Below are positions 4,554 through 30,340 of a DNA stretch of 37,213 bases, piece after piece. The notes beneath the pieces were generated by a model. The model was not told where the DNA came from, ran no database searches, and saw only the letters and a program-made list of their open reading frames with translations. Positions within the stretch are counted from its first letter, which is position 1. Each line of letters begins with the position of its first letter. This stretch comes from Candidatus Limosilactobacillus merdipullorum. GTDB taxonomy: Bacteria; Bacillota; Bacilli; Lactobacillales; Lactobacillaceae. A program made the position numbers and the translations under genes. The stretch is taken from contig DXGK01000025.1 in the NCBI GenBank assembly GCA_019113965.1, positions 1-37,213 of the forward strand, given 5' to 3'.

Positions 4554-5193
4554 ATGTCACAAGTATTTGTTGCTGGCGGATCAGGTCGGGTGGCCACCGA
4601 ATTAATTAAGGACTTAACCAGTGCTGGCCACCAAGTGGTTGCGGGTGCCCGTCATCCAGAAAAATTATTGAACTGGCTGGCGTTACGCCAGTGAAGCTGG
4701 ACTTTCATGCAGATGTTGACCAGCTGGCTGAGTCGATGAAGGGATCGGCGGCAGTTTACTTTGTCGCCGGTTCACGGGCAAAGACCTGCTGCAAACTGAC
4801 GCGATGGGTGCTGTGAAGACGATGCGAGCAGCCGAACAGGACGGGATCAAACGTTATGTCATGCTCAGTTCCATGTATTCGCTCCAGCCGGAAAAGTGGG
4901 CCCAGTATCCGGCTCTAGCGGAGATTACCGATTACAATATCGCGAAGTTCTTCGCTGACCGTTACCTGATTGATAACACCTCGTTGGACTACACGATTGT
5001 TCAGCCGGCCACTTTAACGGAAAAGGCGGATACCGGCAAGGTTAGCTTCGGTGAAGGTGATGACATCACTAATCCGATTTGCGATGTGGCCCAGGTCCTG
5101 GCTGATAGCCTGGATGCGTCAAACACCATTGGTAAAGTGATTATGATGCGCAGTGGGCAAACGCCGATTAAAGAGGCACTAGCTCAGCTATAA
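4554..5193 (+). pseudogene. NmrA-like / SDR-family NAD(P)-binding oxidoreductase, disrupted by two -1 frameshifts
   Basis: ATG 4554 gives MSQVFVAGGSGRVATELIKDLTSAGHQVVAGARHPEK then frameshift at an A run (4660-4664), stop TGA 4692-4694; continues in frame 2 as LAGVTPVKLDFHADVDQLAESMKGSAAVYFVAGSR, second shift at GGG 4776-4778, then KDLLQTDAMGAVKT... to 5193. Confidence 0.8.
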
Positions 5194-5203
5194 GTGGGAA
5201 AGC

Positions 5204-5236
5204 AAAGCACCGACCAATATTGGCCGGTGCTTTTTT
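5204..5236 (+). terminator. Rho-independent terminator
   Basis: AAAGCACCGaCCAATATTGGcCGGTGCTTTTTT. Confidence 0.8.
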
Positions 5237-5291
5237 GTGAAGTAGTACATGCTTAATGCTGAAAAATGAGTATTGAATGAGTGTGGTTAAC

Positions 5292-5326
5292 AAATTGCTC
5301 AGTTTGTAGCGGTCTGAAACGTGATG
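5292..5326. repeat. Left 35-bp arm of long-range inverted repeat
   Basis: AAATTGCTCAGTTTGTAGCGGTCTGAAACGTGATG; reverse complement of 5712-5746 with 3 mismatches. Confidence 0.85.
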
Positions 5327-5605
5327 ATATGCCGGGATTGTAGCATAAATTCCTTGTCAAATTTTAAAAGTTAACAAACGTTATCAATGGGCTCTATCTA
5401 ACAAAACTGAACACCGGATGCCGGTTATTACTAGCAGTTGGCGATAAATCTAGCTCTTTTTTTGGTGAATAGGTAGTCGAAGCATTCTTTGAGAGCATTT
5501 TATCCCCTGCTAAATCATCATCTGTACGGACTCGACGACTGCAAACGCAAATGATGCTGAAACTAATGTTTAAATGTTCATGTGACGCACAGCTAGTCAA
5601 AAAAG

Positions 5606-5747
5606 AAAATTGCATCAGTTGGCGGTCTAAGTGGTGAGATTCGACTTAGCATTTTAATGCTTAGTCGAAGACCGAATTTGGAGACAAACTTGTTTGGCTC
5701 CAAATCGTGTCCACCACGTTCCAGACCGCTACAAACTTAGCAATTTT
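5606..5747. repeat. Cloverleaf-like palindromic element, MITE/REP-like or structured RNA
   Basis: Outer stems AAAATTGC(5606-5613)/GCAATTTT(5740-5747) and GCGGTCT(5622-5628)/AGACCGC(5723-5729); internal hairpins 5641-5668 and 5676-5705. Confidence 0.75.
5712..5746. repeat. Right 35-bp arm of long-range inverted repeat
   Basis: CACCACGTTCCAGACCGCTACAAACTTAGCAATTT; pairs with 5292-5326. Confidence 0.85.
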
Positions 5748-5837
5748 TTAGTGACACGGATACCCCATGCTGTTCTTAAAAATACCCAATAATCAACCAG
5801 CAGCATTAGAGTGTCAATTTAGGTCGTGCATTAAAAG

Positions 5838-23432: not shown

Positions 23433-23454
23433 ATGATCAACAAAACCTTTAACG

Positions 23455-23560
23455 TTAGTCCCGTGAGGCTAGCAAGGTGATGACGGATAAATTGGGGTCC
23501 AATAGTGGGACTCCAGCCAAACGCCGACACTTCCTTCACGGGTAGTGTGGGCTTTTTTTT
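23455..23560 (+). promoter_or_regulatory. PyrR-type attenuator leader (binding loop, antiterminator/terminator)
   Basis: PyrR-site-like TAGTCCCGTGAGGCTAGCAAGG; terminator GCCgACACTtccttcacgggtAGTGTgGGCTTTTTTTT; CCCGTGAgG is complementary to CCTTCACGGG in the terminator loop. Confidence 0.8.
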
Positions 23561-30179: not shown

Positions 30180-30231
30180 TCCTTGTCATTTCAGAAGGAA
30201 TATGTTAAAGTCTAATAGTTGATTTAAATAT

Positions 30232-30340
30232 GACTCTGCCTAAGACTCAGGTGGCGAAAGCCTTAATGATCTGCCTGCCGAGGAAGAATGAAATTCCTTC
30301 TCTATGTCTGCGGTCATAGGGATTTTTTAATCCAAATCTT
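30232..30340 (+). promoter_or_regulatory. L10 leader (ribosomal protein autoregulatory leader)
   Basis: Structured 5' UTR upstream of rplJ: CTAAGACTCAGGTGGCGAAAGCCTTAATGATCTGCCTGCCGAGGAAGAATGAAATTCCTTCTC...; position typical of the Firmicute L10 leader. Confidence 0.7.

Follow-up and report, generated by a model that had tools for sequence, protein, structure and literature searches.

A worn inverted pair in Limosilactobacillus as a probable copy of a MITE-type repeat family of Lactobacillaceae with a core that appears to be constrained as folded DNA

Introduction

In Candidatus Limosilactobacillus merdipullorum, a palindrome-bearing intergenic element separates a short-chain dehydrogenase-like gene from a DUF2252 gene, which raises the question of whether such a sequence is a mobile repeat, the debris of an insertion sequence (IS), or a structured RNA. 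All three had been proposed in an earlier note on the 37,213-nucleotide stretch of DNA analyzed here (hereafter, the window). We examined the element itself, its relatives, the conservation of its fold, and its ends.

The element as preserved in the window

The whole element, to which no strand is assigned, occupies positions 5281–5757. The 35-nt inverted repeat described earlier was confirmed: positions 5292–5326 are the reverse complement of positions 5712–5746 with exactly three mismatches, and the arms extend into the flanks to 46 nt (5281–5326 and 5712–5757; 85% complementary), forming the sole inverted repeat of at least 30 nt reported in the window. The right structured unit (5606–5747, minus strand) is complete and is predicted to fold into an outer stem with a three-way-junction core. 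The conserved core (5623–5728, minus strand) corresponds to 110 positions and 41 pairs of the covariance model described below, which the right unit matched with 114 bits (E about 4e-28). In the predicted fold, one strand of stem P3 (5712–5717) reads GTGGTG on the minus strand and has positions 5631–5636 as its partner, the arm 1 hairpin (5676–5705; ATTTGGAGcCAAAC..GTTTGtCTCCAAAT on the minus strand) bears a C·T mismatch that is fixed in the family, and the arm 2 hairpin (5640–5669; TTCGACTaAGCATT..AATGCTaAGTCGAA on the minus strand) bears a fixed A·A mismatch. Both inner hairpins were located where they had been placed earlier, and the claimed right-end palindrome was more stable than its shuffles on both strands (z about −8.5). 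Specifically, the region 5600–5752 folds at −62.6 kcal/mol (z −8.4), a value equaled by none of 200 shuffles, and its opposite strand folds equally well (z −8.6). The palindrome had been called cloverleaf-like, a shape that must be replaced by a three-way junction, which has an outer stem and two arms and is read most readily from the minus strand.

The left terminal arm (5281–5326, plus strand) is the 5′ remnant of a second copy in the opposite orientation to the right copy and consists of the outer arm and GCGGTCTGAAACGTGATG. It gave a self match with an E value of 4.5e-8 in the DNA search of the genome, whereas the left side matched the covariance model only at chance level (5310–5395), and nothing of this copy is left beyond about 46 bp of its 5′ part. 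The spacer between the ends (5327–5605, no strand) has no recognized gene; a 73-amino-acid frame at 5394–5615 had no match in a Pfam search. The element is a worn inverted pair, in which the right unit is intact and the left unit is mostly gone, and with most of the left unit lost, it is probably no longer mobile. We looked for a target duplication at this copy and, like the earlier note, found none. The proposed comparison with relatives revealed no clean empty site: in L. timonensis (L026:5537–6238), both neighboring genes are the same, and a Bax1-I gene (PF01027) stands where the window has the element (5194–5837).

The dehydrogenase-like gene of the window (4555–5193) is apparently broken, with a sole open frame of 129 amino acids (4804–5193); its counterpart in L. 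timonensis has 213 amino acids, and the window version contains upstream frameshifts or assembly errors. Elsewhere in the window, the PyrR binding-site RNA (23442–23559) and the ribosomal protein L10 leader (30221–30337) both exceeded their Rfam gathering scores.

A repeat family dispersed across Lactobacillaceae

A search for further copies had been suggested, and the element proved to be multi-copy in its own genome and in Lactobacillaceae. With the element as the query, a DNA search of its own genome (a 1.30-Mb draft in 137 contigs) identified about 20 further copies with 69–81% identity, which fold alike: an outer stem is followed by an internal loop with the minus-strand sequence GGAAC, then by a short stem, and finally by two hairpin arms that join in a three-way junction. 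A covariance model of the 110-position core detected about 50 copies in the same genome. Within the genus, six of 54 genomes matched the model, one with 70 copies and another with 27, and a genome equated with [Lactobacillus] timonensis (genus Limosilactobacillus; NZ_LT964761) contained one inverted pair only. Across Lactobacillaceae, matches occurred in about a quarter of the genomes (112 of 401), belonging to 14 of 40 genera and often carrying dozens of copies, whereas no genome beyond the family matched in the order and phylum samples at E ≤ 1e-4. Members are also carried by plasmids of L. plantarum, L. pentosus, and L. paracasei. A stretch of the Ligilactobacillus salivarius UCC118 plasmid pSF118-44 (L332:1501–1615) shares 84% identity with an L. 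plantarum plasmid stretch adjoining a junction core.

A full element comprises about 265–900 bp of non-coding DNA with one, two, or more three-way-junction units of about 110 nt, which are framed by a species-specific outer stem and terminal inverted repeats. An inverted pair of two different subtypes, roughly 40–400 bp apart, is a frequent arrangement; single and tandem units are also present, and some copies are nested. One genome (G198, L144–L151) contains modular elements that measure about 900 bp and are reminiscent of BOX repeats, in which tandem units are followed by a shared middle of several hundred base pairs and an inverted end unit. A 23-nt repeat, CGACGCGAAGCTAGCCTATTTGG, occurs in about 12 copies in the genome of the window, most of them at a few fixed positions inside junction-element copies; it is usually followed by T and has no visible target duplication (examples are L007, plus strand, about 1285–1310; L014, plus strand, about 1592–1615; and L011 and L016, minus strand).

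Rfam contained no relevant match for the junction element at either gathering or permissive thresholds, and a literature search, to which subscription papers were mostly inaccessible, returned no description of the repeat family, which is apparently undescribed and unnamed. A phage or viral origin was considered and rejected: of the 69 viral contigs in which an 18-base motif occurred, none matched the model, and one element was without a phage match.

Conservation of the fold

The pairing is strongly conserved among the copies. In 134 distinct copies, 97.5% of the paired cells were standard pairs, 37 of the 41 pairs had changed on both sides, and two-sided changes occupied 1297 cells compared with 350 in shuffles; because the copies were aligned by fitting them to the model, the structure is somewhat favored, but this bias is much smaller than the effect observed. 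When the partners were slid by 1–3 columns, pairing fell to 32–47%. The element therefore has homologues, many copies, and strong covariation, the opposite of the single-copy sequence lacking all of these that the earlier note had named as its refutation. The same note had proposed an alternative fold in which GGTCT pairs with an inner AGACC, and this lost support, being complete in only 14 of the 134 homologues compared with 100 for the canonical stem.

Within the covarying stems, the C·T mismatch of arm 1 is fixed in 129 of the 134 copies and the A·A mismatch of arm 2 in 128. Such mismatches exist only where a strand is folded and are absent from duplex DNA. At the base of the outer stem, a conserved G·T pair (111 of 134 copies) hints at some strand preference.

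Constraint as DNA or as RNA

The folded strand could be RNA. A mobile or dispersed structured RNA, with a three-way junction that acts in transcripts as a terminator, an attenuator, or a 3′-end stabilizer, would account for the highly stable fold on both strands, the massive compensatory change, and the intergenic location, which is sometimes between convergent genes. However, the type of substitution differs from that expected. In RNA, a G-U pair is nearly equivalent to a Watson–Crick pair, whereas A-C is not, so G-U accumulates. Accordingly, the ribosomal L10 leader, taken from 30 Lactobacillaceae genomes, had 72 G·U pairs versus one A·C; this control represents one RNA family with a fold of only 18 pairs, and its structure, like that of the junction family, came from an RNA program. 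In the junction family, with two pairs with a widely fixed G·T left out, there were 59 G·T versus 87 A·C. The decay of dead copies might blur this ratio, yet the consensus sequences of clusters with at least three members agree, with about 98–99% Watson–Crick pairs and G·T not above A·C. Because G·T does not exceed A·C, unlike in the RNA control, these comparisons of sequences suggest that the fold is constrained as DNA: it appears to be symmetric between the strands, rather than maintained as RNA. Arm-to-arm template switching could contribute to such a constraint.

The genomic setting also argues against RNA. Simple frame calling placed 41 of 72 copies between tandem genes, 20 between convergent genes, and 11 between divergent genes, and 10 copies overlapped a long, otherwise unvetted frame. 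Both orientations are used, and an association with convergent genes only was rejected, given that tandem settings predominate. Together with the lack of an Rfam match and the counts of G·T and A·C, these observations make an RNA element unlikely, and they equally disfavor the earlier suggestion that the DUF2252 transcript has a structured RNA at its 3′ end.

Ends, target duplications, and mobility

Evidence for movement came from one genus, designated g19. Its young copies have sharp ends with the inverted repeats YTAAAGGTTGAAA; the terminal repeat of g19-type elements is also given as CTAAAGGTTGAAA, and in the form TAAAGGTTGAAA, it has dozens of occurrences in each of three genomes out of four, with pairs spaced by up to about 610 bp. 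In sister species of g19, dozens of copies begin and end at identical element positions, with unmatched flanks. When the 7-nt outer flanks of 25 g19 elements were compared, 115 of 175 positions agreed (63.6 expected), a value that none of 2000 shuffles reached; 8-nt flanks also passed (113 of 200; 70.9 expected), whereas flanks of 6, 9, and 10 nt, which correspond to other registers, did not. Transposition with a 7–8-bp target duplication is therefore well supported in this genus. Terminal repeats differ in other genera, and clean ends together with duplications were seen in g19 only.

Some mini-elements of 131–184 bp (L173, L174, L175, L176, and L177) share the same terminal repeats but have no complete junction core. 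Perfect 8-bp duplications are found in some mini-elements, and L174 and L177 are among those with good duplications. Because these core-less elements have the same ends and good duplications, the junction core may be dispensable for movement.

A source of transposase was sought in several ways. In four draft genomes, in which assemblies break at repeats, no pair of terminal repeats was 1–2 kb apart, all being under about 610 bp, and no transposase-bearing partner or IS with a matching terminal repeat was found. The frames between more distant converging copies were, by eye, ordinary host-like genes; the genes that lie between the inspected copies or next to them included neither a recognizable transposase nor a RAYT gene. 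A comparison of plasmids likewise yielded no clean empty site.

Relationship to known repeats and elements

The family is short, non-coding, and dispersed, with terminal inverted repeats and target duplications, the last two in g19, and thus has the characteristics of miniature inverted-repeat transposable elements (MITEs), except for a parent IS. The earlier guess of a MITE- or REP-like element was accordingly of the right kind: the family is dispersed, non-coding, and structured, and relatives of the window copy have ends and 7–8-bp duplications of this type. With RUP, Nezha, and MITEAba12, it also shares high copy numbers and the lack of a transposase. Unlike these MITEs, it has a covarying internal DNA fold that members from different genera have in common despite their different terminal repeats, and no parent IS was found.

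The BOX repeats of Streptococcus pneumoniae and S. suis, with the structure boxA-(boxB)n-boxC (PMC3049150), are similarly non-coding, modular, variable in length, and present in many intergenic copies, with stable secondary structure, terminal repeats, target duplications, and nesting. The junction family differs in its three-way-junction module, fixed mismatches, distribution over 14 Lactobacillaceae genera, and frequent inverted pairs of two subtypes, a distinction based on the description of BOX rather than on its sequence. REPINs replicate as inverted pairs of palindromic units, which are extragenic and predicted to fold, and their singlets are remnant-like (PMC3116915); inverted, extragenic pairs and remnant-like singlets are also features of the junction family. 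Its organization can thus be likened to that of BOX or REPIN repeats, although we claim membership in neither.

The Y1 transposases recognize hairpins with mismatches, and the fixed mismatch in each hairpin of the junction family recalls such substrates by analogy. The elements could then be REPIN- or BIME-like, with single-stranded DNA as the mobile form and, as the enzyme, a Y1 transposase of the RAYT/IS200 type that reads the mismatched hairpins, a scenario with which the inverted pairing and intergenic dispersal of the units are also compatible (PMC3116915). However, the units are three-way junctions of about 110 nt with several helices, not hairpins of 20–40 bp, and by unit type the element is not a REPIN. 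Terminal inverted repeats and 7–8-bp duplications, as in g19, are uncharacteristic of IS200/REP elements, and no transposase or RAYT gene accompanied the inspected copies, so we consider movement of this type improbable. That the window element is an ordinary IS remnant, consisting of the ends of a known IS that has lost its transposase gene, is very unlikely: the terminal inverted repeats and 7–8-bp duplications would fit a DDE transposon, but neither the window element nor the inspected pairs contain a transposase gene between their ends, and neutral IS debris would not maintain a core with strong covariation over 14 genera.

The inverted terminal repeats of parvoviruses (AAV) are T-shaped palindromes of about 140 nt, each with an outer stem that encloses two inner hairpins. 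The junction element resembles them in its T-shaped palindrome and in the inverted copies at the element ends; this is an analogy of form, in which sequences were not compared and no kinship is claimed, and neither a replication protein nor a virus was found with the junction element.

A probable non-autonomous family with a folded-DNA core

The window stretch is most likely a decayed copy of a Lactobacillaceae-wide, non-autonomous family of MITE type with a folded-DNA core. In the mechanism that we envisage, a transposase supplied in trans would cut at the terminal repeats, and the palindromic core, when the DNA is supercoiled or single-stranded, would extrude into a fold with three arms. A protein may recognize this fold via its conserved loops and mismatches, which would aid transposition or limit harm at the insertion site, and palindrome-templated repair may help to hold the arms complementary. 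Because the core is missing from some elements that carry the same terminal repeats, it may serve a purpose unrelated to movement; it might, for example, limit read-through or recruit a host protein for repair or replication. We have clearly less confidence in any particular role for the core than in the interpretation of the family as a transposon.

A bolder and rather doubtful proposal is that the family represents a new class of bacterial transposable element, of which the folded-DNA three-way junction would be the defining part. In such a class, a dedicated or host protein would read the mismatches and loops, the T-shaped terminal palindromes would act in DNA much like terminal repeats of the parvovirus type, and the junction would have been carried through 14 genera of Lactobacillaceae while the outer terminal repeats were exchanged.

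If the constraint does act on DNA, the family would provide rare evidence from comparative sequence analysis that a complex DNA fold is under constraint, and counts of G·T versus A·C would offer a means of separating DNA from RNA structure in bacterial repeats. As a large repeat family in bacteria well known from industry and medicine, it is immediately testable in tractable strains.
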